This document shows positions 4,558-59,221 of a stretch of 64,000 nucleotides of DNA, piece by piece. The position numbers and the translations under genes are program-made. Source of the stretch: Actinomycetes bacterium. Lineage in GTDB: Bacteria > Actinomycetota > Thermoleophilia > RBG-16-64-13. How positions within the stretch are numbered: the first letter of the stretch is position 1; every line of letters begins with the position of its first letter. The DNA is taken from contig JAGXFW010000033.1 in assembly GCA_024637035.1 (NCBI GenBank), positions 1 through 64,000 on the forward strand, in the 5' to 3' direction. The notes under the pieces were generated by a model, which did not search any database, was not told the DNA's origin, and saw nothing but the letters and a program-made list of their open reading frames with translations.

Positions 4558-4663
4558 ACTGACTGTCACAAATCAGGGGTCCGGGCACGTTCGGTTGTCC
4601 GGAGGTCGCACGTCAGGTAGTCGGGCCGCTACCTGGAGATAGCTCTCCAGGCAGCGGCTTTTT
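4558..4663 (+). promoter_or_regulatory. Riboswitch-like attenuator leader, class not recognised
   Basis: The leader can form two exclusive structures. A terminator has a 5' arm at 4625-4639 and a 3' arm at 4644-4658, followed by TTTTT. An antiterminator pairs CAGGTAG (4614-4620) with CTACCTG (4629-4635), which uses part of the terminator arm. Upstream, CTGAC (4559-4563) can pair with GTCAG (4612-4616), closing a domain of about 58 nucleotides that contains an eight-pair stem-loop (4580-4602). Closing this stem would occupy the antiterminator and favour termination. I cannot match it to a known riboswitch class. Confidence 0.65.
4625..4663 (+). terminator. Intrinsic terminator of the leader
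   Basis: GCCGCT-A-CCTGGAGA pairs with TCTCCAGG-C-AGCGGC around a TAGC loop and is followed directly by five T. It lies 77 bases before the start of the next gene, so it acts as a conditional terminator if the antiterminator forms. Confidence 0.85.
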
Positions 4664-43943: not shown

Positions 43944-44384
43944 GTGGGGGAACTGTGCTGGGAGATCGTAGGAGACGGCGGTCATGGTGACCGTGGTTGC
44001 CGGTCGTGCCCCGCATACCTGACCGGCTCCGACTGTTGGGAAGTGAAAGGCACCCCCTGCTCGTGCAATCCGGCCATCTGCATCCTCATCGAATGCCCCG
44101 TCTACCTCGTGCATAAGGCTGAGATCGAGAGTCGCCTTGCCCACGAAGACCTCGAGACCATGCTGCGCGCAGTCGAGCGCGTCGCCTCGGGTCAGTGCTG
44201 GGAGATCGAGGAGTGCACCGAAGCGGTGAGGGGCACCTGCCCGGCTCACGCAGAAGGCGCCCATTGTTGGGAACTCTCCTCACCCTGCCCCTGCAGCGGC
44301 GAAGACGGGTTCAGCCGTTGTCTCGTCTGCCCTATCAGGGTCTTCCACCAGCGCAACGCTTCTTCGCCGATCCGCAGCAGCTGA
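43944..44384 (+). CDS. Cys-rich two-CW domain protein, duplicated module
   Basis: This 146-residue protein has 18 cysteines and two similar halves. Each half has a CWEI start, a CPA segment, a second CWE, a PC-x-C motif and a final CP: residues 5-52 (CWEIVGDG, CPAYLTGSDCWEV, PCSCNPAICILIECPVY) and residues 85-133 (CWEIEECTE, CPAHAEGAHCWEL, PCPCSGEDG, CLVCPIRV). The pattern fits the two-CW domain family of unknown function found in anaerobes. Metal or Fe-S binding is likely. It ends 52 bases before the ArsR gene. Confidence 0.75.
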   Translation: MGELCWEIVGDGGHGDRGCRSCPAYLTGSDCWEVKGTPCSCNPAICILIECPVYLVHKAEIESRLAHEDLETMLRAVERVASGQCWEIEECTEAVRGTCPAHAEGAHCWELSSPCPCSGEDGFSRCLVCPIRVFHQRNASSPIRSS

Positions 44385-44401: not shown

Positions 44402-44460
44402 TTGCGCACGCGGTATTCCTCGCGCATAATATATTCATGTATGTCGATACTTCCATACAT
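44402..44460 (+). promoter_or_regulatory. Promoter and operator of the arsR-selenoprotein operon
   Basis: TTGCGC (44402-44407) and TAATAT (44427-44432) are 19 bases apart and predict a start near 44438, almost at the ArsR ATG, so the mRNA may be leaderless. ATGTATG (44437-44443) and CATACAT (44454-44460) form an inverted repeat with a ten-base spacer over the start codon, a fitting ArsR autoregulation site. Confidence 0.6.
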
Positions 44461-44775
44461 AGCACCCGGACCGACGACCCGTCGGAGGCAATACACCTCG
44501 CGCGCCTCGGCCGGTTCTTCAAGGCTCTCAGCGAACCGACTCGGCTTCGGATAGCACTGGCACTCACCGAGGAATGTCGCCCCGTGAGTGACGTGGTGGC
44601 GGCCACCGGTCTTCCTCAGCCCCTCGTCTCTCACCATCTTCGCATCCTGCACGAGGCGGGCATCGCCAAGCCCGATCGACAGGGCAACCAGGTGTACTAC
44701 TGACTGCAACGCGCCGTGGTCCGGGAGGCCATCCGCGTAGCCGAGAAGGCCATCGAGTCGGGGACGGCGTCGTGA
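44437..44775 (+). CDS. ArsR-family regulator with an in-frame UGA near its end
   Basis: Residues 20-88 are a complete ArsR winged helix (ARLGRFFKALSEPTRLRIAL, then GLPQPLVSHHLRILHEAGI, DRQGNQVYY). A TGA follows as codon 89. The same frame continues for 23 codons (LQRAVVREAIRVAEKAIESG) that form a plausible C-terminal helix. It ends in a TGA overlapping the GTG of the next gene. A hairpin of six pairs (44716-44721/44727-44732) with loop CGGGA starts at +13 after the UGA. I annotate read-through as selenocysteine. The short form ending at 44703 is the alternative and would still hold the DNA-binding domain. Confidence 0.6.
44716..44732 (+). promoter_or_regulatory. Putative bacterial SECIS hairpin of arsR
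   Basis: GTGGTC pairs with GGCCAT (with G-U pairs) around CGGGA. The apical loop starts 19 bases after the UGA, within the usual window, and contains G residues. Confidence 0.45.
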
Positions 44776-46025
44776 GCGACGCACCGACGTCCGACGCGCC
44801 ACTCCACGAAGACGCCTCGGGAGGGCCGGCGCAGGGGGGCGCGGAGCCCGCAAACACACAGTCCTGCATCATCTGCGACAGCACGCTCGACTACCTGGAT
44901 TCGGCGGCCGCGCTCACCTGCACCGTCTGCGGGAGTGAGGGTCGGGGGCACGTCGTCTGCCCGCGGGGACACTACGTGTGCGAAGGCTGTCACGGAGCGA
45001 GCTTCATGGAGCGTCTCCCTGGTCTGCTCGACGCGGCCACCTCGTCCTCCCCGTTCGCGATCGCGGAGGACCTCATCGCCGAGACCGACCTCCCCATGCT
45101 CGGGTGCGAACACGCGCACGTGGCGGCGGGTGCCTTGATGCGGGCCCTGGAGAACGCCGGTGTGGCAGGAGTCACCGCCGCCCACAGGGCTGAAGTGCTG
45201 GAGAGGACGGCCCGCCAGGCGGTGAGCGCGTACTGCGGATTGAGTGGCGTGTGCGGGGTCGTGCCTGCCCTGGGAGCCTGCTACAGCGTGCTCGTGGGCG
45301 GTCAGTGCGGCAAAGGCCCGCAGACCAAGGCGGCCATGACCCTTGTCTCCCGCCTCGCGGCGGCCACGGCCGCCGAGGCACACCCGGGCTGCTGCAAAGC
45401 CTATGTGCGAGTCGGCCTCCGCGAAGCCACAGCCTTCCTGCAAGAGGAGTTGGACATCACCTTCGACGCGGCCGCGCCCGTGATCTGCGCCGACACGGAA
45501 CGCCACCCCCACGGGTGCCGAGGCGCGGAGTGCGCCTGGCACCCCGACCACGAGGAGACGCACATGAACGAACCCGATACGGCCGTGCCCACGGCCGGCG
45601 CGGCGTCGACTCTCGGCGGGACGGGCGGCACCGGACCCGCCGCAAAGGCGCGCTACGACGAGTTCTTCGAGCTCGCCTACGCCGACGGCGTCCTCGATCG
45701 CAAGACGAAGATCCTGGTGGCATTGGGGGCTTCACTGGCATCCGGCTGTGCTCCCTGAACTCAGTATTGCCTCTCGGTCGGGAGGCGACTCGGGGTGACG
45801 GACGAGGAGGTCGACGAGGTGCTCCACGCCGCGATGACCGTTGGAGCCACGCGCATGCAGGTGATGCTCTCGCAGGAGGTCGCGCAGCTCGCTCCGGCGG
45901 AGGGAACACCTTCCACGCCTTCTCCCGCCGCGACGGAAGACCCGCGCCCGAGCGTCGCGGCCGACCGAGCAGGGTCGCCCGGGTTCGCCGCCGCCGAGGT
46001 GGTCGAACAGGCGGGTGGTGGCTGA
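44772..46025 (+). CDS. DUF5714-AhpD (carboxymuconolactone decarboxylase-like) fusion selenoprotein
   Basis: The product has 417 residues if the TGA at 45756 (codon 329) is read as selenocysteine. Residues 30-270 form a Cys-rich DUF5714-type domain (CIICDSTLDYL, CTVCGSEGRGHVVCPRGHYV, CEGCHG, LGCEHAHVAAGALM). Residues 290-385 are AhpD/carboxymuconolactone-like (FELAYADGVLDRKTKILVAL). The redox motif reads SGCAP-U-TQYC, that is CxxU where relatives have CxxC. The frame goes on as LSVGRRLGVTDEEVDEVLHA, the normal AhpD continuation, which proves the TGA is internal. A SECIS-like hairpin follows. An ATG at 45564 with GAGGAG upstream could also start the AhpD part alone. Confidence 0.85.
45767..45788 (+). 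promoter_or_regulatory. Putative bacterial SECIS hairpin of the AhpD selenoprotein
   Basis: TTGCCTCTC pairs with GGGAGGCGA over nine positions (two G-U) around a GGTC loop. The loop starts 18 bases after the UGA. A GGUC-type apex resembles the well-known fdhF element. Confidence 0.75.
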
Positions 46026-46042
46026 ACAGGTTGAGAACCCGA

Positions 46043-46061
46043 CGACGCCGGTTCGGCGTCG
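46043..46061 (+). terminator. Hairpin between the two selenoprotein genes
   Basis: CGACGCCG pairs with CGGCGTCG around GTT, 18 bases behind the AhpD-type stop. No T-tract follows, so it may be an RNA-stability element rather than a terminator. Confidence 0.4.
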
Positions 46062-46177
46062 CAGACGGTCTCGGATACCACGGCTACCACGGATCGCCCG
46101 CCGCAGCCGGCATCTGGTTCCACGTGAAAGTAGAAGAGCGGCCCGTGGCGGCCGCCGCACAAGAGGAAAGGGGATCC

Positions 46178-46486
46178 ATGGACCAAGCAGACCAAGAAAG
46201 CCCGCACATCGACCTGATCTCCAAGGGTCCCTCGTGAGTGCTCTGCAATCTCGCCGTGAGCGCGATGGAAGACATACAGGAGGAGAGCCCAGGCCTGTTC
46301 ACGTTCTCGGTGGTTGATGCGTCCACCCGAGAGGGCGTGAAGTGCCTGCAAGAACTGCGACCGGAGGCCGGGCGTCAGATTCCCGTGCCCGGCGTGATGA
46401 TGAACGGAGCGATCATTTTCGACCGAATCCCCGACATGGAAGAGTTCGGGGAATGGCTCGAAGGGCAGACGACGCCCGGGGCCTGA
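46178..46486 (+). CDS. Thioredoxin/glutaredoxin-fold selenoprotein with UxxC motif
   Basis: The ATG at 46178 has AAAGGGG upstream. The frame meets a TGA at codon 20 and continues to 46486, giving 102 residues. The active site reads GPS-U-VLCN, a UxxC motif placed between the first strand (HIDLISKG) and the first helix (NLAVSAMEDIQEE). The second strand (FTFSVVDAS) and the cis-Pro region (IPVPGVMMNGAIIF) complete a thioredoxin fold. Without the Sec codon the fold would lack its first strand and active residue. An imperfect SECIS-like stem lies at 46248-46266. It is the third UGA gene in a row and probably acts with the AhpD-type partner. Confidence 0.8.
46248..46266 (+). promoter_or_regulatory. 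Putative bacterial SECIS hairpin of the thioredoxin-like selenoprotein
   Basis: ATC-T-CGC pairs with GCG-C-GAT with one mismatch around CGTGA. The loop starts 18 bases after the UGA. Confidence 0.5.
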
Positions 46487-46497
46487 CTCCCCGTAGC

Positions 46498-46657
46498 AGG
46501 CTGTTGAAGAATGGACGCTTCGCCGCCAGGGCGCGATGGGCGCGTGCGAGACAAGGAGGCAGGAAGCGCTCGTAGCAGCGCTACGTGCGCGACCGAGGAC
46601 GCCGCATCGCGCCGTCCAGTGCATTCTGGCGGCCAAGGCTTCGATCTTCAACAGCCT
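46498..46657. repeat. 160-bp palindromic element (REP/MITE-like)
   Basis: The element has 13-bp perfect terminal inverted repeats, AGGCTGTTGAAGA and TCTTCAACAGCCT. Inside are further matching arms: CCGCCAG/CTGGCGG, GGCGCGATG/CATCGCGCC, and an AGCGCT-CGTAGC-AGCGCT tip. As RNA it folds into one long hairpin. It begins 12 bases after the last selenoprotein stop and may also end transcription. The remaining bases up to the EamA gene show C/T-rich runs only. Confidence 0.8.
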
Positions 46658-48625: not shown

Positions 48626-50206
48626 CTACATCACGGACGCCTGCGTGTACCTGACGACCGACCCACGCACGTCGTCCACCACCGCTTGAGCGACGGACAA
48701 CGCGGGGGCGATGCTGCGGTCCTCGAGCCCGTCCAACAGGTCCCGGAAGACGGCCACGAGACTCGCGTTCAAGTCGCCGAGTGCGGACCGGCGCGGGACC
48801 GAGACGCCGGACCCGGGCGGGTGTGGAGCGGGATCACCAAGCCACACCTCCTGCGGCAAGCCGGCGAAGACGTTGCGGCACGCCTCGGCCATCGTCTCCG
48901 CGAGGAATCCCACCTCGGGGTGCCGGTAGGGAATGGTGCCCTCGTAGGGGTTGTGGGGTGACACGACCAGCCGGCCCTCCGCCTTAGCGGAGCTGAAGGC
49001 TGGCGTGCCGGCGAGCATGATCTGCTGGTGGTAAAGCACGTTTGCGGTGAGGCTGAGACGGTCGAGCAACCCCTCTTCCTCGAGGAACGCCAGGTTCACC
49101 CGCACGTCGGCGAGCGAACTGTCGGGCTCGAACATGATGAAACCCACGTTCGGCTCGATGCCGTGCGAACGGAGGATGTGGAGCGCGCGCCGGTTCTGTT
49201 CGACTGTCGTGTGCTTGTTCAGCCGGGCCAGCGTGGCGTCGGACCCGCTCTCGAGGCCGATGAGGATCTCGTCGAAGCCGGCCTTCACCAAGGCCTCCAC
49301 CACCTCGTCGTCGATATCGTTCACCCGGCCCTCGATGCCGAAGCGCACCTCGAGGCGCTCTTCGATCAGCCGGGCCAATCGGAGCACGCGCGCCCTCCCC
49401 CGACCCCTAGGCCCGAAGAAACTCGGATCGACGAAGTAGAAGCGACGCTTGTGCGGGTGCTCCTCGAGCACTGAGGTCATCTCTGCCACCACGCTCTCGG
49501 GCGAACGTGGTCGCCAGTGCGAGCCTCCGCCGTAGAACGGGTTGATAGTGCAGAAGGTGCACGACCCGTAGCAGCCCCGACTCGCCGCCACGTTGACCTC
49601 ACGCAGCGAGAGCATCTCGGGTGTGCGGACGGGCGGGGAAAGGGAGTCCAGGTCGTCGACCAACGGCCGCGGAGGCGCGGCGACCACTCGCCCTCCGATC
49701 CTGGCCGCCGTGCCGGCGACGCCGGCCAACGCCTCCGCCGGCGAACCCCCGCGCCGGCCCCGGCCCCGCCCGACCAGCGCGGCCACGGCCTCCACCACAG
49801 TCACCTCGGGCTCCCCCACGACGACGCCGGCGACACCGGGAAAGCTCGTGAGCAGGTGGTGATAGGCGAAGGTGGGATAGAACCCGTACAACAACGAGGG
49901 CACGCCTCCCGCGGCGGCGGAGACCTTGTCGAGGAGTTCACGGACGTGTGCTCCGTCGGTCCAGTCGTATACCAGGTGCAGCCCGATGAGGTCGGGTGCA
50001 TGCGCGGCCACGCGGGCGGCGATCTCGTCCGTTGCGAGACGGCCGAGATTGCCCTCGACCACGAGTACGTCGTGACCGGCTGCCTGTAGCGCGGCTGCCG
50101 CGTACCCGGTCATCAGACTGCTGGAGAGCGGAGTGTTGGCCACATCGTTCATGTGCACCCAGCTCGACCGGCGTGGGTGTTCGATCAGGGCGATCCGGGC
50201 ACTCAA
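48626..50206 (-). CDS. B12-binding radical SAM enzyme (BzaE-like)
   Basis: This 526-residue protein has an N-terminal cobalamin-binding region (about 1-150, SLMTGYAAAALQAAGHDVLV) and a radical SAM domain with SRGCYGSCTFC (C-x3-C-x2-C) near residue 210, followed by FYFVDPSFFG and EILIGLESGSD. It overlaps the preceding radical SAM gene. In known anaerobic 5,6-dimethylbenzimidazole operons two such enzymes, BzaD and BzaE, methylate the ring. Position suggests BzaE, but assignment between the two is by order only. Confidence 0.8.
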   Translation of the reverse strand: MSARIALIEHPRRSSWVHMNDVANTPLSSSLMTGYAAAALQAAGHDVLVVEGNLGRLATDEIAARVAAHAPDLIGLHLVYDWTDGAHVRELLDKVSAAAGGVPSLLYGFYPTFAYHHLLTSFPGVAGVVVGEPEVTVVEAVAALVGRGRGRRGGSPAEALAGVAGTAARIGGRVVAAPPRPLVDDLDSLSPPVRTPEMLSLREVNVAASRGCYGSCTFCTINPFYGGGSHWRPRSPESVVAEMTSVLEEHPHKRRFYFVDPSFFGPRGRGRARVLRLARLIEERLEVRFGIEGRVNDIDDEVVEALVKAGFDEILIGLESGSDATLARLNKHTTVEQNRRALHILRSHGIEPNVGFIMFEPDSSLADVRVNLAFLEEEGLLDRLSLTANVLYHQQIMLAGTPAFSSAKAEGRLVVSPHNPYEGTIPYRHPEVGFLAETMAEACRNVFAGLPQEVWLGDPAPHPPGSGVSVPRRSALGDLNASLVAVFRDLLDGLEDRSIAPALSVAQAVVDDVRGSVVRYTQASVM

Positions 50207-51714
50207 CAGGAAGCCTCCTCGGTGGGATAACGGGCGCCGGTGCGGCGACTCGCATGCAGATGGTGCCTCTCTTCCAGCTCGTAGCGCAGATGCTGGTAGG
50301 GCGCGGGGTCGTGATAGGTAGGGAACAACAGGTGGTCCTCGGGTTCGAGTGTTCCGGACGCGACGAGCTCCTCGGCAAGAGGTGTGCCCGGGTAGACCCG
50401 TAGGTTGTTGAACACGATGGCCCCGAGGTTCTCGCGGGGATTATGTATGTCGTGCAGGCGGTCGACCAGTTCGTGCGCACCGGCCACCACCTCCGAGTCG
50501 GTGCCGGGCACGTTCGCCATGAAGTGGTACACAGAGAGCGCCTCGGTGCCGGCCGCCGCCCGGGCCGCGCCGAGCACGTCGCCGAGCGTGAGGCCCTTTC
50601 GCAGCCGAGCCAGGGTGCGATCGCAGGTGCCGTCACCCGAGAACTGGAAGGCGGCGCACCCCGCCTTCACCGCAAGCTTCGCGTCGGCCGGAGTCAGGAC
50701 GTCTTCGCGGAAGAAACCGGTCCACCGCACGGGCAGACCCCGATCCACCAAACGTCCGCAGACCTCGCGGAAGTGCCCAGCTGGGTAGTTCAACACCGGG
50801 TCGTTGAAGTGCACCCACTCGGCTCCGGTCTCGCGATGAAGCGCTTCCACCTCGGCCACGATCGTCTCCGGACTCCGGTAGCGCAGGCGGCGCCCTTGAA
50901 GAGCGGGATACACGCAGTACGAACAGCCAAGAGGACAGCCCCGTTTGGTCTCGACCCCTGCCGCCGGCGCGTAGCTGGTGCGTCCCGCATAGGAAGCGGC
51001 GAGCTCCGGGAGCCAGGTGCGCACCGCGTCGAGCGCGACCTCGGGAAGCCACGGCCGGGCCGGACCCTCGATCAGGCGGGTGCCGCGGTCGACGGCGGAG
51101 TCCGCAGCGTCGGCGATGGAGCCCGAGGCGTCGGCGATGGGGCCGGTGTGGGCGGCGCAATCGGCGGAGCCCGTAACATCGGTGGGCCGGGCCTCGCGCA
51201 CCCGGACGATCGTGCCCGGCGTCCCCGCGAGATGAGCCACATCCGCTCGGAGATGCTTTGCCGCCCCGGATGGCCGCGCGCTCCGCTCGAGCCCGGCGAG
51301 GACCTCAGGGAAGGTCGCCTCCCCCTCCAAGAACACACCCACGTCGACCGCGGGATACCGTTCCATGATGGCCCGCGGGAACATGGAGAAGCCCGCGCCT
51401 CCCACCACCAGCGGGACGGACGGGAGCCCCCTCCGTACGACTTCGAGCAGTGCGCCGAAGGCCGGAAGGAAGGAGTGGCGGCGGTTGGCCAGGGGATCGA
51501 TGTTGCGAAGCCCGATCCCCACGACCTGCGGGTCCGATCGCCCCAGCGCCGCCGCAAGCGCCGGGAAGGGGTCGGTCGCCAGGTTGAGGTCGACCAGCTC
51601 CACGTCGTGGCCGTGGGCGCGGGCAGCGGCGGCCACCGCCGCCAACCCGAGGGGAGCCACGATCTCGGCGTGGGGGCCTTCCACCGACGGTGCCTGTATG
51701 AGTAGAACGCGCAC
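50203..51714 (-). CDS. B12-binding radical SAM enzyme (BzaD-like)
   Basis: This 503-residue protein has an N-terminal B12-binding domain (VAPLGLAAVAAAARAHGHDV, GIGLRNID), then an Ala/Asp/Ser-rich linker of about 40 residues (ADASGSIADAADSAVD), and a radical SAM domain with KRGCPLGCSYCVYP (C-x3-C-x2-C) near residue 255. It starts three bases after the methyltransferase gene and overlaps the next gene. The order after cobT and a methyltransferase is that of bzaD in the Eubacterium limosum operon. The variable linker is unusual for the family. Confidence 0.8.
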   Translation of the reverse strand: MRVLLIQAPSVEGPHAEIVAPLGLAAVAAAARAHGHDVELVDLNLATDPFPALAAALGRSDPQVVGIGLRNIDPLANRRHSFLPAFGALLEVVRRGLPSVPLVVGGAGFSMFPRAIMERYPAVDVGVFLEGEATFPEVLAGLERSARPSGAAKHLRADVAHLAGTPGTIVRVREARPTDVTGSADCAAHTGPIADASGSIADAADSAVDRGTRLIEGPARPWLPEVALDAVRTWLPELAASYAGRTSYAPAAGVETKRGCPLGCSYCVYPALQGRRLRYRSPETIVAEVEALHRETGAEWVHFNDPVLNYPAGHFREVCGRLVDRGLPVRWTGFFREDVLTPADAKLAVKAGCAAFQFSGDGTCDRTLARLRKGLTLGDVLGAARAAAGTEALSVYHFMANVPGTDSEVVAGAHELVDRLHDIHNPRENLGAIVFNNLRVYPGTPLAEELVASGTLEPEDHLLFPTYHDPAPYQHLRYELEERHHLHASRRTGARYPTEEASC

Positions 51715-51717
51715 GGC

Positions 51718-53340
51718 TTACCCGACCAACAGCAGCCCGACGTACGTCGCCGGGGAGTCGCGGTCGGGGACGGGTTCGAGGCGCCACCCTACGGCAGCGG
51801 CGGTGGCGTAGACATCCATGCCGCTGGCCTCCATGGAAGGCCGCGCCTCGGCGGGGTGGCGGCAGTGGTCGGGCTCGCAGTCAGAGCACAGACGACACGG
51901 TCCCGCCACGAACGCGAGGGCCCTTGGGGCGCCGCCGAGAAAGGCGGCACGCTCCAAGGTCAACATCCGACGGTGGAACTCAGCGGTCGGAGGCTCACCT
52001 TCCACGAGCAAGGCCTGGGTGTAAGAGGCGAGCACCGTCCGCGTCTCATCCGCCTGGGGGGAACGGGGTGGGCACTGGCCGCCCGAGCCGTAGCCCCCGC
52101 AGCCGAACCTGCACTTCACCTCCACCCACGGGGCGGTGACCACGTGGGCGGGCGAGATGGCGGCGGTCCTGCGGAAACCGAGGTCGCGCGCGGCCCCGTC
52201 CAACATCTCGAGGCGGTCTACACGGAGTGCCGACAGAACCTCGGGCGTACGGGCTGCCGCCATGAGCACGGTGTCCTCTTCGCCGGGCGTGTCGCCCGCT
52301 CCCAAGGGGATGGGGCCGGCGACCACCAAACCCTGCGACTCCAACCGATCCCGCACCCACTGCCACGGATACGTGCGCCCCTGGTAGGTGTTGATCATCA
52401 TGTGCAGGTCGAAGAAGGCGCTCTTGACGGGACCGCGCCCCGCTCCGTCGGTGAAGAAGTCGTGCACCAGGAGGAGGCCTGTATCCGATATGGCGCCCGC
52501 GGCCCGGTCGAGCAGGGGACCGGAGTCCTGATGCGAGTAGGCGTGCACCACGTTCGAAGCCACGACCAGACCCCAACCAGCCCCGCCTTCGGGCGGGGTC
52601 GGGATCGCCTGGTCCAAGAGGTTGCAGGCGGCGAAGCTCAGCCGCCCTGTGAGCGGAGGCCCGGCGACGACTCGCTCGCTCGATTCCTCCCGCGCAAGCT
52701 CCACCACCTCAGGCATGTCCAGCACCACGCCCCGCCACCCCGGGTTGCGTCGAAGAAGCTCGGCGGCGATCGCCCCCGCTCCCCCGCCCAGGTCGACGAG
52801 ATGCCCAGGGGCCAAGACGGTCGTGTCGAGCCGATCGGCAATGAGACGAGCTTTGTGGCGGGCTACATCATCCATGGCACGCAGGTAGTCGCGAACCCGG
52901 GCGCGGTAGGCTGCCTCGTCGTCGTGCGCCGACTGCTCGAGCGGAGAGCCGCCTCGACGCACGGCTTCTCCGAGCCGGGACCACGTGCCGGCGAGCCGGC
53001 GCCTGTATCTGAGAGAGTCGCCCAGATAGCCCGGGGAGCCGCGAAGCAGGTGTCGGCGAGAGACCGTGGCACAGGCCACCAGCACGTCCCCGGTATCCGC
53101 CCGCTCGTGGAGGGTCAGCAGGCCCAAGCTCGCGAGGGCCCGCACGAACCGGCTGCAACCCTCGCGGTCCGCGTCGCACCGCCGGGCAAGTTCGTCCACC
53201 GTGAGCGCATCTTCCCCCAGGGCTTCGAACACACCGAGTTCGAGCGCGGCGAACAAGGCCTCCGAGAGCCAGGCCGCGGTTGCGAGGTCCTCGATATCTT
53301 GCGGGGTCGCGATGCCGCCCTCTTTGGGCCAGAAGCTCAT
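51718..53340 (-). CDS. Methyltransferase fused to a DUF2284 domain (BzaC-like)
   Basis: This 540-residue protein has a winged-helix dimerisation part (1-110), a class I methyltransferase domain of the O-methyltransferase type (LVDLGGGAGAIAAELL, VLDMPEVVELA, LLVHDFF) up to about 355, and a C-terminal DUF2284-like region (365-535). The latter has VEVKCRFGCGGYG, GGQCPPRSP and FVAGPCRLCSDCEPDHCRHP cysteine clusters, which probably hold a metal or Fe-S cluster. BzaC, the methyltransferase of the anaerobic benzimidazole pathway, occupies this place next to cobT. The DUF2284 fusion is not part of the BzaC known to me. It overlaps cobT by ATGA. Confidence 0.8.
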   Translation of the reverse strand: MSFWPKEGGIATPQDIEDLATAAWLSEALFAALELGVFEALGEDALTVDELARRCDADREGCSRFVRALASLGLLTLHERADTGDVLVACATVSRRHLLRGSPGYLGDSLRYRRRLAGTWSRLGEAVRRGGSPLEQSAHDDEAAYRARVRDYLRAMDDVARHKARLIADRLDTTVLAPGHLVDLGGGAGAIAAELLRRNPGWRGVVLDMPEVVELAREESSERVVAGPPLTGRLSFAACNLLDQAIPTPPEGGAGWGLVVASNVVHAYSHQDSGPLLDRAAGAISDTGLLLVHDFFTDGAGRGPVKSAFFDLHMMINTYQGRTYPWQWVRDRLESQGLVVAGPIPLGAGDTPGEEDTVLMAAARTPEVLSALRVDRLEMLDGAARDLGFRRTAAISPAHVVTAPWVEVKCRFGCGGYGSGGQCPPRSPQADETRTVLASYTQALLVEGEPPTAEFHRRMLTLERAAFLGGAPRALAFVAGPCRLCSDCEPDHCRHPAEARPSMEASGMDVYATAAAVGWRLEPVPDRDSPATYVGLLLVG

Positions 53341-54545
53341 GCGGTCACTCCCGCTGCGCCGCCCGCTCCGGCCGCTCCGCCCGCTCCGGCCGCGGTCGAC
53401 TCTGCGACCCCTGCCTCGGCGAACGTGGCCATCGTGCCTATGAGGGCCGCAGCGCCATCCACCAGAGGCATGGCCAGTGCTGCGCCCGTACCTTCTCCCA
53501 GCCGCAGATCGAGATCGAGGAGCGGTTCGACGCCCAGGTACTCCAACATGACTCGATGACCCGGCTCGAGCGACCGATGCGCCGCGATCAGGTACTCACG
53601 AGCAGCGGGCGCCAAGGCACAGGCGACCAAAGCCCCCGCGGTAGAGATGAAGCCGTCCACCAGCACCGGTATTCCGGCGGCCGCCGCACCCAGGATGATG
53701 CCCGCGATGCCGGCTATCTCAAGCCCGCCCACGGCCGCCAGTGCGCCGAGCGGGTCGGATGGGTCGGGGCAGTTGAGAGCCAGCGCCTCCTCCACGACGT
53801 GCCGCTTCCGCTCGAGGGCGGGATCGTCGATACCCGTGCCGCGGCCGGTGACCTCGGAGGGCACGCGGCCGGTGAACACGCAGGCGAGCGCACTCGAAGG
53901 GGTGGTATTGCCTATGCCCATGTCGCCCGTGGCCACCAGGTCCAGACCCTCTGCGACCAGGCCCTCCACCACGTCGATGCCCGCCTCGATGGCGGCCGTC
54001 GCCTGCTCGCGGGTCATGGCGGGCCCTGAAGTCAGGTCGTCGGTGCCGAGGCGGACTTTGCGATGCAGGACGGCGCCGGAAGCGAGCGCCTCGGCGAGAC
54101 TCGCGACCGGCCGCAGGCCGATGACCTCAGCCAGATCAGCGGCCACGCCCACGTCGGTGACCACGACCCGCGCTCCCGCGGCACCGGCGAGCGCATTGAT
54201 CGCGGCCCTGCCCCGCGCGAAGTTCGCCACCATCTGGGTTGTGACCTCAGCTGGGAACGCGCTTACCCCACGGCGCACGACTCCGTGGTCACCGGCCATG
54301 ACCACCACGGCCTTTCGTGGGAATGCCGGCGTCAGGCTCCGTTGGATACCCGCGAGGCGAACAGACAACGCCAACACCCTGCCCAGGCTCCCCGCGGGGA
54401 TCGCCAGCTGGGCTGCGCGATCCGTGGCGGCGTCCACGGCTATGGGGTCGACCGGCATGATGGCGGCCAGCGTTCGCGCGAGAAGGCCCGGGCGGCCCAG
54501 CCAGAGCGTGTATTCGGCTGTGGGTGTGTGATCTCCCTGGTTCAT
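53337..54545 (-). CDS. cobT: Nicotinate-nucleotide:dimethylbenzimidazole phosphoribosyltransferase
   Basis: CobT makes the alpha-riboside phosphate of the lower ligand. The 402-residue protein has the family core with LAIPAGSLGRVLALS, VVMAGDHGVV, TTQMVANFARGRAAINAL, GDMGIGNTTPSSAL and the catalytic region GRGTGIDDPAL, plus EYLIAAHRSLEPGH near the end. The C-terminal tail is Ala/Gly-rich repeats (GAGGAAGAGGAAG). The ATG at 54545 is used because it gives the family N-terminus. It sits between the ABC transporter and the BzaC-like gene. Confidence 0.95.
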   Translation of the reverse strand: MNQGDHTPTAEYTLWLGRPGLLARTLAAIMPVDPIAVDAATDRAAQLAIPAGSLGRVLALSVRLAGIQRSLTPAFPRKAVVVMAGDHGVVRRGVSAFPAEVTTQMVANFARGRAAINALAGAAGARVVVTDVGVAADLAEVIGLRPVASLAEALASGAVLHRKVRLGTDDLTSGPAMTREQATAAIEAGIDVVEGLVAEGLDLVATGDMGIGNTTPSSALACVFTGRVPSEVTGRGTGIDDPALERKRHVVEEALALNCPDPSDPLGALAAVGGLEIAGIAGIILGAAAAGIPVLVDGFISTAGALVACALAPAAREYLIAAHRSLEPGHRVMLEYLGVEPLLDLDLRLGEGTGAALAMPLVDGAAALIGTMATFAEAGVAESTAAGAGGAAGAGGAAGVTA

Positions 54546-54591
54546 CGTCCCTCTCTTCCGCGGCACGCAGAAACCTGCACACGCCGCTTGC

Positions 54592-55494
54592 TCATCGTGT
54601 CCGACCCTGCTCCAGCAGTGCGCGCACTTCGACCGCCGCCCGGCGAAGTGCACCGCCGGAGAGATCGTCGTTCCCGGCGCCGCGGAACCTGCGGGCGGGG
54701 GTCACATCCACGCTCCCCATGATGCCGGCGGGGCGCCCGCCGAGCACCGCCACCCGGTCGGCGAGCTGCACGGCTTCGTCTACGTCGTGGGTGACGAGGA
54801 CCCACGTGGCCGGGTGCGTGTCCATGACCCGCGCCATCCACTCTCGAAGATCGGAGCGGGTGATCGCGTCCAGACTGCCGAACGGTTCGTCCAGCAGGAT
54901 GAGACCGCGCCCCAAGGCGAGGGTCCGTGCCAGTGCGACCCGTTGGCGCATGCCTCCCGAAAGCTGGTGGGGATACAGGTGAAGCGAGTCCTCGAGACCG
55001 AACTCGTGGAGGAGAGCGAGCGCCCGTTCGCGCGCGGCGTCCAGTGCCGCACCACGTCCTCCGCGGAACGACCAGCGCTCACCGCCCCGTATCGCCGACT
55101 CGGCTGCGAAGGAAGCGTTGGCCAGAACGGTCTTCCAGGGCAAGAGCAGATCGTTCTGGAACATGTAGGCGGCGCGGCCCCCCATAGTCGGGGTGACGTC
55201 GACCTGTCCGCTGACCGGCTCGAGGAGCCCGGCGAGCGCATGGAGAAGAGTGCTCTTGCCGCAACCGCTCGCCCCGACCACCGCCAGACACTCACCCGGC
55301 GTCAGGTGCAGGTCGATGTGCTCCAGCACCGAAGTGAAGCCCCTATCTGTGGGATAGCCCAGGCTGACGTCGCGGAGCCGCACCTCCACGCCACCGATCG
55401 CGCCCGCGGAACCCGTACCTTCGGAACGCGCCGCGCCGGCGCCCTCCAAGGGCGCCGGCGCCGGAGCGACAGCCATGTCGGCATGCGGCATCAC
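54592..55494 (-). CDS. ABC transporter ATPase in the bza-type operon
   Basis: This 300-residue ATPase has Walker A GASGCGKST, the Q-loop YMFQNDLLLPW, the signature LSGGMRQRVALART, Walker B LILLDEPFGSLD and the H-loop VTHDVDEA. It belongs to the nitrate/sulfonate/taurine-type (SsuB/ThiZ) group that works with NMT1-like binding proteins. The N-terminal 35 residues are low complexity. It follows the binding-protein gene by 20 bases and precedes cobT by 46. Confidence 0.92.
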   Translation of the reverse strand: MMPHADMAVAPAPAPLEGAGAARSEGTGSAGAIGGVEVRLRDVSLGYPTDRGFTSVLEHIDLHLTPGECLAVVGASGCGKSTLLHALAGLLEPVSGQVDVTPTMGGRAAYMFQNDLLLPWKTVLANASFAAESAIRGGERWSFRGGRGAALDAARERALALLHEFGLEDSLHLYPHQLSGGMRQRVALARTLALGRGLILLDEPFGSLDAITRSDLREWMARVMDTHPATWVLVTHDVDEAVQLADRVAVLGGRPAGIMGSVDVTPARRFRGAGNDDLSGGALRRAAVEVRALLEQGRTR

Positions 55495-55514
55495 GTGAAT
55501 ACTGCGACTACCTG

Positions 55515-56720
55515 CTACTGCGGGAGGTAGTCGTTGGTGAGTGCGGATGCCACGTCCAGAGGCGCCGCGAGTAGTCCGGCCTCTATCATCCAGTCATGCA
55601 GTACCTGCCAAGCCGCCTCATCCTGAGCGCCGGCAGAGCCGCCGCCCGGGGCGAGAGCCAACGAGGGGATCGTGGCCTCCCATTGGGCGAGGAGCGTGGC
55701 CCGATCGAACTCCGGATGGGCCGCTACGTAGATATCGACTGCTTCTTCGGGATGCGTGGCCGCGTACTCGAGCCCGACGAGCGTGGCGGCCAGGAAGGCG
55801 CGCACCGTGTTCGGGTTCCGAGCGGCGAAATCATCACTTGTGATCACGTTCATGAAGGCGTAGTCGGGTGAGCCCCAGTCGCGGAAGTCGAGGTAGCCGA
55901 TCTCAGAGTCGGATGCCGCATCCGCCTCCACCAACTCTCCGAACGCGGTGAAGGCCACCGCGTCATACGTGCCGGCGAGAAGAGGTGCGACCAGGTCGAA
56001 GCCTGGGTCCACCAGGGTGACCGCGGCTGGATCCACGTCGCCCGCCTTGAGCATCGCGTCATACGAGGCCCGCACCGAGGGGATCATGGGCACGGCGACC
56101 GTCTTGCCCACTAGGTCGGCGGGGGTGGTCGCGGTGAGACCCGGAGCGAGCGCCAAACCGAGCGGGGCATGGCTCATCAGGGCCGCCACCGATACCACCG
56201 GGGCGCCTTCGCCTCGCGCCATGAGCACATCGGGAGCGTAGTACAGGCCGAACTGGCTCTTGCCTGTGGAGACGAACTTCACCACGTCGGTAGGGCCGCT
56301 GGGGATGGATTGGGTCACGGTAAGCCCGGCATCGCCGTAGAAGCCCTTGGCTTGAGCTACGTCGATAGGGATGTCGAGCACCCAGGGCACCCAGTCCATG
56401 ATCAGGTCGATCTCGGCCACTTCCGGCGCCGGTGACTCCTCGGCGGCAGACGCGACGGTGATGCTGGTGACCGCGGTGGTCTCGGACGCGGGCGCCGTGG
56501 TCACGCTCTCCGTGGAGCCGGCGCAGCCCGCGAGGAAACCGAGCACCAGCACCGCCGTCGAGACCAGCGCTGCGAGAGAACCGACCGAGCGATGGCGGCC
56601 GTCGCCGGTGGAGGCGCCGGCATGAGCGGCGCGGATGACGCAACCAGCATGCGCGGCCTGGGGGGCGCAACCAGCATGCGCGGCCTGGGGGGCGCCGTTC
56701 TTCAAGACAGATTCATTCAT
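55515..56720 (-). CDS. NMT1/THI5-like substrate-binding lipoprotein of the bza-type operon
   Basis: The ATG at 56720 has AAGGAG about 12 bases upstream. The 401-residue product has an unusual N-terminal extension with AAHAG repeats (residues 10-36), then a lipoprotein signal with lipobox FLAGC near residue 67. A binding domain follows (IDLIMDWVPWVLDIPIDVAQ, AKGFYGDAGLTV, LVGKTVAVPMIPSVRASYD). The family includes ThiY and riboflavin-binding proteins and binds flat aromatic heterocycles in several cases. Located between the BzaF-like and CobT genes, it is a candidate for binding a benzimidazole or a precursor. Confidence 0.85.
   Translation of the reverse strand: MNESVLKNGAPQAAHAGCAPQAAHAGCVIRAAHAGASTGDGRHRSVGSLAALVSTAVLVLGFLAGCAGSTESVTTAPASETTAVTSITVASAAEESPAPEVAEIDLIMDWVPWVLDIPIDVAQAKGFYGDAGLTVTQSIPSGPTDVVKFVSTGKSQFGLYYAPDVLMARGEGAPVVSVAALMSHAPLGLALAPGLTATTPADLVGKTVAVPMIPSVRASYDAMLKAGDVDPAAVTLVDPGFDLVAPLLAGTYDAVAFTAFGELVEADAASDSEIGYLDFRDWGSPDYAFMNVITSDDFAARNPNTVRAFLAATLVGLEYAATHPEEAVDIYVAAHPEFDRATLLAQWEATIPSLALAPGGGSAGAQDEAAWQVLHDWMIEAGLLAAPLDVASALTNDYLPQ
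56641..56694 (-). repeat. 27-bp tandem repeat in the binding-protein gene
   Basis: Two perfect 27-bp copies and a degenerate third encode nine-residue units (APQAAHAGC) ahead of the signal peptide. Confidence 0.85.
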
Positions 56721-56722
56721 AT

Positions 56723-57535
56723 TCAGATCGTCTCCTTCGATGTCGTCCGGCCGAGGACGGCCGGTTGTCTCCACCATCCGATACGTCGTTCGAGTAGCCC
56801 GGTGGCGCCGTACGCGCCCAGGCCCAGAAGCGAGATCACCAGCACCGCGGCGAACGCCTGGGCGGTAGCCAGGCGGGCGTTGGCACTCAGCACCAGGTAG
56901 CCCAAGCCCCGATCGGTGCCCGTCCACTCCGCGACCACGGCTCCCACCAGGCTGAGCGTGACGCCGGCGCGGGCACCAGCCGCGAGGAACGGCCCCGCGC
57001 CGGGCAACCGCACGCGCCAGAAGACGTCCCACCGCGAGGCGCCCACGGAATCGAGCAGGAGGATCAGGCGCGGGTCGGCGGACCGCAGCCCCTCCAGGGA
57101 TGTGACCGCCATCGGGAAGAAGGCGATCAGCGCGCAGATCACCACCCTCGGCGTAGAGCCGTAGCCGAACCACAGCACCAGCAAGGGGGCAAGCGCGATC
57201 ACGGGGATCGTCTGCGAGGCCACGACCACCGGTGTCAGCATGCGATCGAGGATGCGAGAGTGCACGGCGGCGGCCGCGAACAGCAGGGCGGCCGCCGCCG
57301 CGACCACCAGTCCGGCGCCAGCCTCGCCCAGAGTCACCAGCGCGTGCCGGGCGAACAGGCCCGGCGAGCCCAAAAGCGACGCGAGGACCATCGAGGGGGC
57401 CGGAAAAATGAACGTCGCGACCCCCGTCGCCCGCACCACGATCTCCACGATCGCAGTCAGCGACAGGATGATCCCAGTCGTTGCGGCGGCGTTTCGGAGA
57501 AGTGACGAACGGGTCGGATGGTTCGCACGGGTCAT
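56723..57535 (-). CDS. ABC transporter permease in the bza-type operon
   Basis: This 270-residue permease has about six membrane segments and the EAA loop DSVGASRWDVFWRVRLPGAG. It is of the SsuC/ThiX type (SQTIPVIALAPLLVLWFGYG, FAAVLVISLLGLGAYG). The ATG at 57535 lies five bases behind the stop of the BzaF-like gene. Together with the lipoprotein and ATPase it forms a complete importer that shares the cobalamin-riboswitch transcript. Confidence 0.92.
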   Translation of the reverse strand: MTRANHPTRSSLLRNAAATTGIILSLTAIVEIVVRATGVATFIFPAPSMVLASLLGSPGLFARHALVTLGEAGAGLVVAAAAALLFAAAAVHSRILDRMLTPVVVASQTIPVIALAPLLVLWFGYGSTPRVVICALIAFFPMAVTSLEGLRSADPRLILLLDSVGASRWDVFWRVRLPGAGPFLAAGARAGVTLSLVGAVVAEWTGTDRGLGYLVLSANARLATAQAFAAVLVISLLGLGAYGATGLLERRIGWWRQPAVLGRTTSKETI

Positions 57536-57540
57536 GCGCG

Positions 57541-58848
57541 TCAGACCTTCTCCGCCGAAAGCGAGTCGCGGAAGAGAGCATCGGCGTTCTTGGCCGCGCA
57601 GAAGTCGCCGCACATCGTGCAGGTGGACTCGTCCGCGGGGGTGCGGCTCGCGCGAATCGCGCGGGCCGTGTCGCCGAAGAGGGCCAGGTCGAACTCCTTG
57701 TCCCACTTCATGTCGCGCCGAGCCTTGCCCATCTCCAGGTCGCGGGCGCGGCCGCGCTTCCCGAGCTTGACGATGTCGCCCATATGCACGGCGAGCCGGG
57801 CCACGCGCACGCCCTCGCGCACGTCCTGCTCGTTGGGCAGAGCCAGGTGCTCGGCCGGCGTGATGTAGCAGATGAGGTCGGCTCCGAAGCGCGAGGACGA
57901 AGCCGCACCCACGGCCGCCGTGACGTGATCGTAGCCGGCGCCGATGTCGCAGGGCAATGGGCCGAGCACGTAGTAGGGGGCGTCGCCAGACATGCGCTTC
58001 TGGAGCTGGATGTTGCCTTCGATCTCGTCGAGCGGCACGTGGCCGGGTCCTTCGACCATCATCTGGCAGCCCATGTTGCGCCCGAGCTCGGCGAGCTCGC
58101 AGTTCGTGACCAGCTCGGCCACCTGGGCCCGGTCGGAGGAGTCGTGGATCGCCCCCGCCCGGATGCCGTTCCCCAGACTCAGCACCACGTCGTAGCGGCG
58201 CAGGATGTCGACCACACGGTCGAACTGCTCGTAGAGCGGGTTGTCCCGGCCGTTGGCCAGCATCCAGGAGACCAGGAATGTGCCGCCCTTGGACACCAGG
58301 CCACCGTAGCGGTAGCCCTGTTTGCGCAGCCGCTCCACGGTGTAGAGGTTGATGCCACAGTGCACCGCCATGAAGCTCATGCCGTCGGCGCACTGGCGCT
58401 CGATGATCTCGAAGAGTAGCTCAGGGTCGAGCTTGTCGGGGTCGTGATAGCGGCGGGTGGCCTCGCAGAAGGCCTGGTAGAGGGGCACGTTGCCCACCGG
58501 GAGCTCTGTGGCACCGAGAACCTGTCGTCGGATGTCGTCGAGGTCGCCGCCCACGGAGAGCTCCATGAGCGTGTCGGCGCCCTCCTCCTCAGCGGCTCTG
58601 GCCTTGCGGATCTCGGCCTCCACGTCGACGATGTCGCTGGACGTGCCGATGCTGGCGTTGACCTTGGTGCGGAGACCCTGACCGATCCCCACCACCCGGG
58701 AATCGCGCCTTACGTTCTTCGGGATGACGATGGTGCCCTGAGCCACCCGATCCCGTACGACTTCGGGCTCAAGCCCTTCGTCGCGGCCCACGACGGCCAT
58801 CTCCGCGGTGATCTCGCCGGCCCTCGCTCGTTCGATCTGTGTTGCCAT
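57541..58848 (-). CDS. bzaF: ThiC-family radical SAM enzyme, probable 5-hydroxybenzimidazole synthase (BzaF)
   Basis: This 435-residue protein is a ThiC homologue (MSFMAVHCGINLYTVERL, MMVEGPGHVPLDEIEGNIQL, YYVLGPLPCDIGAGYDH, CYITPAEHLALPNEQDV) with a C-terminal CTMCGDFC cluster motif (C-x2-C-x3-C). Bacterial ThiC has C-x2-C-x4-C. ThiC makes the thiamine pyrimidine; the paralogue BzaF turns the same substrate, aminoimidazole ribotide, into 5-hydroxybenzimidazole for B12. The cobalamin riboswitch and the cobT/bzaC/bzaD/bzaE-like genes downstream favour BzaF. Without a test, ThiC remains possible. The ATG at 58848 has AAAGGGG seven bases upstream. Confidence 0.8.
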   Translation of the reverse strand: MATQIERARAGEITAEMAVVGRDEGLEPEVVRDRVAQGTIVIPKNVRRDSRVVGIGQGLRTKVNASIGTSSDIVDVEAEIRKARAAEEEGADTLMELSVGGDLDDIRRQVLGATELPVGNVPLYQAFCEATRRYHDPDKLDPELLFEIIERQCADGMSFMAVHCGINLYTVERLRKQGYRYGGLVSKGGTFLVSWMLANGRDNPLYEQFDRVVDILRRYDVVLSLGNGIRAGAIHDSSDRAQVAELVTNCELAELGRNMGCQMMVEGPGHVPLDEIEGNIQLQKRMSGDAPYYVLGPLPCDIGAGYDHVTAAVGAASSSRFGADLICYITPAEHLALPNEQDVREGVRVARLAVHMGDIVKLGKRGRARDLEMGKARRDMKWDKEFDLALFGDTARAIRASRTPADESTCTMCGDFCAAKNADALFRDSLSAEKV

Positions 58849-58885
58849 GTCGTGCCCCTTTCGACGGTCGAACCGTTTCGGGGGC

Positions 58886-58918
58886 AAAAGAAAAAGCCCC
58901 CAGCCTGTTAAGGCTGGA
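58886..58918 (-). terminator. Terminator of the cobalamin riboswitch
   Basis: On the minus strand CCAGCCT/AGGCTGG (58917-58900) is followed by GGGC and then TTTTTCTTTT. It lies about 35 bases before the bzaF start and is the expression platform. Confidence 0.8.
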
Positions 58919-58964
58919 GACTTTGCCATCATCTCCAGGCAGGGCTCCCTCTACTCGGGGAGCC

Positions 58965-59200
58965 TACCAGCTGCTCAGGCAGGTCTTCTGACTCTCGGAT
59001 CGTCGCTCCCCCGCGCCTTCCCATCCTCCTTGCCTCCACTCCCCCCAACTCGGGGAGCGGCGGTGGAAGGACAGTGGCACCTGCGGGCTCACTCCCCGAT
59101 CACAGCGGCGGGACCGTCCGGGTATCGCACCCGGTTCCCTCTTAGCCGCACCCGGTCGCTCCGACTTCGGAGCCACCTCGCGCGGGACCTGGCAACCATG
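58965..59200 (-). promoter_or_regulatory. Cobalamin riboswitch
   Basis: Read on the minus strand, the sequence has the conserved cobalamin-aptamer parts in order: GAGGGAAcCGGGTGCGA, CCCGCCGCTGT, the B12-box GTGCCACTG, GGGAAGG, and CGAGAGTCAGAAGACCTGCC. High adenosylcobalamin should favour the terminator downstream and switch off the operon. The match leaves little doubt about the class. A TPP riboswitch was looked for and is not there. Confidence 0.95.
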
Positions 59201-59221
59201 CTACGAATGCTACGGTCGCTA

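Follow-up and report, generated by a model that had tools for sequence, protein, structure and literature searches.

Does an in-frame TGA at the redox motif of an AhpD-type domain, in a gene that joins this domain to a Cys-rich DUF5714 domain, encode selenocysteine (Sec), and if so, to what kind of system does the protein belong? The question is raised by a locus in the window, i.e. the whole 64,000-nt stretch of contig JAGXFW010000033.1 (GCA_024637035.1) that was analysed and to whose positions all coordinates refer, in the genome of a little-known actinobacterial lineage. The reading reached here, to which a probability of roughly 0.8 is given, is that the locus encodes a Sec-containing DUF5714-AhpD protein within a multi-selenoprotein operon. 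The genes appear to form an operon of an ArsR-type regulator, the DUF5714-AhpD protein with a CxxU motif and a small thioredoxin-like protein with a UxxC motif, all three being putative selenoproteins (Table 1).

Table 1. Features of the locus, with positions in the window
Feature	Positions	Strand	Details
ArsR/SmtB-family regulator	44437..44775	+	in-frame TGA 44701-44703 (VYY-U-L)
DUF5714-AhpD fusion protein	44772..46022	+	single internal TGA (U329); Pfam domains, five-genome conservation
N-terminal Cys/His cluster, zinc-finger-like	44865..44990	+	C32, C35, C50, C53, C63, H67, C70, C73
Internal Shine-Dalgarno GAGGAG (45552-45557) and ATG (45564-45566)	45552..45566	+	domain junction
TGA read as selenocysteine, position 2 of CxxC (CAPU)	45756..45758	+	PDB relatives, five genomes
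SECIS-like hairpin, nine pairs, GGTC loop	45767..45788	+	loop starts 18 nt past TGA 45756
Possible read-through tail	46023..46133	+	TGA 46023 and 46032 (GGG-U-TG-U-EPDDAGSAS), 46125 followed by AAG TAG
Tail hairpin, CGACGCCG-GTT-CGGCGTCG	46043..46061	+	3' of two tail TGAs
Thioredoxin-like protein	46178..46486	+	TGA 46235-46237 (GPS-U-VLC, UxxC)

The fusion gene and its internal TGA

A sequence-only reading had reported the frame SGCAP-TGA-TQYC at the place of the AhpD CxxC pair, and this frame was confirmed, as was support for Sec in the resulting CxxU motif. The extent proposed at that time, 45564-46025, stood at its end, where the frame closes at a TGA (46023-46025) that is itself perhaps recoded, whereas its start had to be moved, as the protein begins with a GTG at 44772 and 45564 is a probable internal start. 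Between these limits the frame is open apart from TGA 45756, and Pfam models place DUF5714 (PF18978, E 6e-34) at residues 89-256 and a CMD/AhpD domain (PF02627, E 2e-13) at residues 289-359. In alignments with the solved relatives 1vke, 1p8c, 5dik and 7y4r a Cys lies opposite the TGA, and all the aligned AhpD homologues from the PDB run on beyond it; natural termination at this position, which had been named as the observation that would speak against Sec, did not appear.

The fusion with TGA at the homologous codon was found in five genomes, i.e. that of the window (G000) and four Actinomycetota metagenome assemblies of the named collection (G001, G012, G010 and G014), which together represent three genera of a single family and are independent assemblies. 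The codons 3' of the TGA are under purifying selection, with dN/dS of 0.22 between G000 and G001 and 0.18 between G010 and G014. Because the TGA is kept at this codon across the three genera and purifying selection acts downstream of it, it is not a chance occurrence. The genome encodes tRNA-Sec with a UCA anticodon, SelA, SelB and SelD, and SelA was present in all six of the operon genomes; on the sequence evidence TGA 45756 is taken to be decoded as selenocysteine by this machinery. The selD gene has an in-frame TGA of its own (G000:C7:14250-15176, L017).

The nine-pair hairpin with a GGTC loop that had been noted after the TGA is present. All nine pairs can form in three genomes and seven of nine in two, and in the alignment 91% of cells pair compared with 47-67% in slid versions, all of which it beats. 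Covariation is minimal, amounting to one two-sided change that was matched by 103 of 500 shuffles. The hairpin is evidence for, but not proof of, a SECIS function.

The DUF5714 part may bind a metal. Its N-terminal Cys/His cluster is invariant among 27 DUF5714 homologues and it also contains a Cys-Cys-Lys motif, features that would fit a metal-binding, zinc-finger-like site. When modelled alone the domain has a well-predicted fold (pLDDT 93), with which Foldseek found nothing significant; the best rows on a second look were MmgE/PrpD helical domains (Z 6.4 over 134 residues, 3.9 A), a resemblance that may reflect merely a common arrangement. The CMD fold of the AhpD part, already evident from sequence, is supported by its structural model, the best second-look match of which was 3bey (Z 10.5 over 86 residues, rmsd 8.0). 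Two stand-alone DUF5714 ORFs (L056 and L057) have a terminal TGA followed by a second stop one to three codons on (SC-U-R-stop and QA-U-EYW-stop), which could be a C-terminal Sec or chance.

The flanking genes, the tail and the surroundings

Beyond what the sequence-only reading had covered, the analysis found TGA-containing ArsR and thioredoxin-like genes on either side of the fusion, further TGAs in its tail and an internal start. The TGA of the thioredoxin-like gene occupies a homologous codon in six genomes, the codons past it gave dN/dS of 0.11 and 0.23 in two close pairs, and it aligns with a Cys of 1nho, in a weak match (E 0.38). Sec in this protein is judged very likely. Of the 399 class genomes examined, only these six were found to have close relatives of the gene. 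All six operon genomes also have a paralogous thioredoxin-like gene, again with a single in-frame TGA (G000:C24:9743-9988, L089-L094).

The upstream gene has the winged helix-turn-helix of the ArsR/SmtB family, matching NF033788 with 77.2 bits (cut-off 55; E 6e-22) in an alignment that extends beyond the TGA. Here too the TGA is at a homologous codon in six genomes, in all of which a Leu and a Val-Arg 3' of it are retained. The case for Sec is weaker than in the other two genes because dN/dS past the TGA is about 1 in the G000/G001 pair, over just 23 codons, and the residue aligned with the TGA in solved ArsR proteins is Ser or Arg, not Cys; Sec in the ArsR protein is considered likely. At E 1e-22 a search of 396 genomes of the phylum returned only the ArsR genes of this operon. 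ArsR is not mentioned in the available text of the 2026 selenoprotein review (PMC13188914), and no Sec-containing regulator was found among the selenoproteins described there.

With the TGAs of the ArsR and thioredoxin-like genes conserved in six genomes, the locus can therefore be described as a three-selenoprotein operon. The order of ArsR, DUF5714 gene and thioredoxin-like gene is kept in all six, and in five of them the ArsR stop (44773-44775 in the window) overlaps the start of the DUF5714 gene as ATGA or GTGA, GTGA being the form found here. The middle gene in G005 encodes DUF5714 without AhpD. The surroundings of the trio are of at least two kinds, some genomes having an SDR gene and genes related to B12 next to it, and G010 and G014 having arsM with other genes; since gene order is kept across these differing surroundings, the trio behaves as a unit. 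All comparisons of the operon and of the tail cover 5-7 genomes of a single family, those given by name being metagenome assemblies.

The fusion frame may not end where it first appears to. TGA 46023 is conserved in seven genomes and TGA 46032, which would give a UxxU motif, in four; TGA-AAG-stop (at 46125 here) is found in four, and a fifth has a TGA in the equivalent position. The tail motif also occurs without an AhpD domain, in G005 and G004, and a hairpin resembling that at 46043-46061 is present in most relatives. The tail codons give no uniform picture of selection, with dN/dS of 0.29 for one pair and 2.0 for another, and the case for read-through at the three TGAs into a Sec-rich tail is suggestive only.

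The wider window holds several other features. An anaerobic B12 lower-ligand (bza-like) cluster lies on the reverse strand at 48626-58932, with ThiC/BzaB-like and CobT proteins and two B12-binding radical SAM proteins, one of them BzaD-like at 380 bits, under the cut-off; a cobalamin riboswitch (58961-59206) lies upstream of it. Within the cluster is an O-methyltransferase-DUF2284 fusion (51718-53340, reverse strand) with no in-frame TGA, the DUF2284 of which is a module also found in the selenoprotein MbdU. Directly 3' of the operon is a MITE-like palindromic repeat (46498-46657, about 160-180 bp; AGGCTGTTGAAG.../...CTTCAACAGCCT) with 37 matches of 67-100% identity in the same genome. On the forward strand a Cys-rich ORF (43944-44384) has no Pfam or NCBIfam match but has conserved counterparts close to the operon of G001 and G012, and an nhaA-I riboswitch (41.6 bits) is found at 4577-4634.

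Possible function and alternative readings

It is tentatively proposed that the system, under ArsR control, handles a soft metal, metalloid or electrophile by selenol/thiol redox chemistry. The ArsR protein would sense a soft metal(loid), an organometal or a reactive electrophile; the Cys-rich DUF5714 part would bind either what is sensed or a metal; in AhpD the Cys-Sec pair, aided by Cys333, would reduce or relay thiol/selenol groups, and the thioredoxin-like UxxC protein would re-reduce the Cys-Sec bond. A bolder version, put at somewhat below even odds, is that the regulator is itself a selenoprotein, an ArsR whose DNA-binding wing has Sec at its end, and that it controls both a DUF5714-AhpD protein with as many as four Sec (those of CxxU, of the UxxU tail motif and the penultimate one) and a Sec-containing thioredoxin-like partner; expression would then be gated by selenium supply as well as by ligand. 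If the regulator does contain Sec, selenium would be needed to complete a protein that regulates transcription.

Several other readings have to be weighed. TGA is a normal stop in this organism, and under table 11 the ORF ends at 45756, which would leave a DUF5714 protein ending at CAP and an AhpD remainder that is decayed or a remnant of sequencing error. This is very improbable given the same codon in five independently assembled genomes, the strong selection past it and the Sec machinery of the genome; such a truncation would also cut AhpD within its active site. A more serious contender is that DUF5714 and AhpD are mainly separate proteins, with AhpD-U translated chiefly from ATG 45564 and the in-frame fusion secondary. 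In every one of the five genomes, no other internal ATG is preceded by so strong a Shine-Dalgarno sequence as this one (AAGGAGG in two of them), which suggests that the AhpD domain is also translated alone; residues 269-288 form a low-confidence linker in the model, and DUF5714 occurs without AhpD in G005 and G004. Against it, no stop codon separates the domains in any of the five genomes, therefore ribosomes starting at 44772 must make the fusion, and mainly separate production is regarded as the lesser, though real, possibility.

As to activity, a peroxidase role had been suggested, and the CMD/AhpD fold with its CxxU pair would allow a classical peroxidase of the AhpD type in which Sec is used. 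A Glu and a His around the CxxC define the AhpD peroxidase. These two residues, which flank the motif in 5dik and 1vke, are replaced by Ile314 and Cys333 in all five fusions, which carry a CMD/AhpD domain with CxxU but depart from the pattern E-x11-C-x2-C-x3-H; classical peroxidase chemistry is unlikely because of this replacement, and the peroxidase reading is accordingly given little credence. The putative metalloid-reducing role suggested alongside it is possible. A dedicated arsenic detoxification system, with the Sec-containing ArsR as arsenic sensor, is also doubtful, if slightly less so. An arsenite methyltransferase gene (arsM) adjoins the operon in G010 and G014, and the AhpD part is closest to that of the ArsM-AhpD selenoproteins. 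Yet this arsM is convergent and has its own ArsR-like gene nearby, the two genomes are related, an adjacent arsM was not seen in the other operon genomes, and the neighbours in the window are an EamA transporter, an SDR and the B12 lower-ligand cluster. The arsenic link rests only on gene neighbourhood and family resemblance. The three genes together offer a compact test case for the roles of these orphan selenoproteins.

Comparison with described selenoprotein families

The table of the 2026 review (PMC13188914) has entries for ArsM/DUF2284, ArsM/AhpD and MbdU, the metal-binding double selenoprotein credited to Haft & Tolstoy 2025, and the CxxU motif is given there for the ArsM/AhpD and MduS selenoproteins. 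DUF5714-AhpD was not found in that table as available, and the fusion matched no family model above its cut-off, which agrees with the earlier proposal of a new architecture. No further DUF5714-AhpD fusion was found in 84,980 species scanned by two short DUF5714 peptide patterns. Where the earlier reading had proposed looking for Cys or TGA at the codon in homologues, both were found, TGA in the five genomes and Cys in the aligned PDB relatives.

Both halves of the fusion have selenoproteins as their NCBIfam relatives. The N-terminal part matches positions 29-273 of the 468 in the MbdU model (NF045648), but the 283 bits fall short of the cut-off of 600, and AhpD takes the place of DUF2284, to which there was no match; a true MbdU from Nitrospirae (748 bits) consists of DUF5714 followed by DUF2284. 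The AhpD part matches positions 266-340 of the ArsM/AhpD selenoprotein model (NF041537), the protein scoring 102 bits against a cut-off of 510, with DUF5714 instead of the ArsM methyltransferase; searches of the class genomes yielded no full ArsM_AhpD_UU members. Similarly, the C-terminal part of the MduS methyltransferase domain selenoprotein (NF045649) matches the AhpD region with 73 bits, whereas the fusion is without the methyltransferase domain. The distant AhpD homologue/GSU3128 family (NF041047) is likewise an AhpD-type CxxU selenoprotein, but with 25 bits the fusion stays under its cut-off of 110, and as the model has 84 positions this family is without the DUF5714 part.

The third gene resembles the HUIPC-motif thioredoxin-like selenoprotein (NF047660) in being a thioredoxin-like UxxC protein (46.6 bits), but lies under the cut-off of 105 and has the motif PSUVLC. 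The adjoining selenoprotein genes recall the three-selenoprotein Tso operon (PMC13188914), from which the locus differs in that no gene matched the TsoA, TsoB or TsoC models and the ArsR gene reached 56 bits with the TsoR model, for which the cut-off is 115. The fusion thus supplies the missing DUF5714-AhpD combination in a set of selenoproteins that pair ArsM or DUF5714 with DUF2284 or AhpD, and the modular make-up of this set hints at one common biochemical theme.
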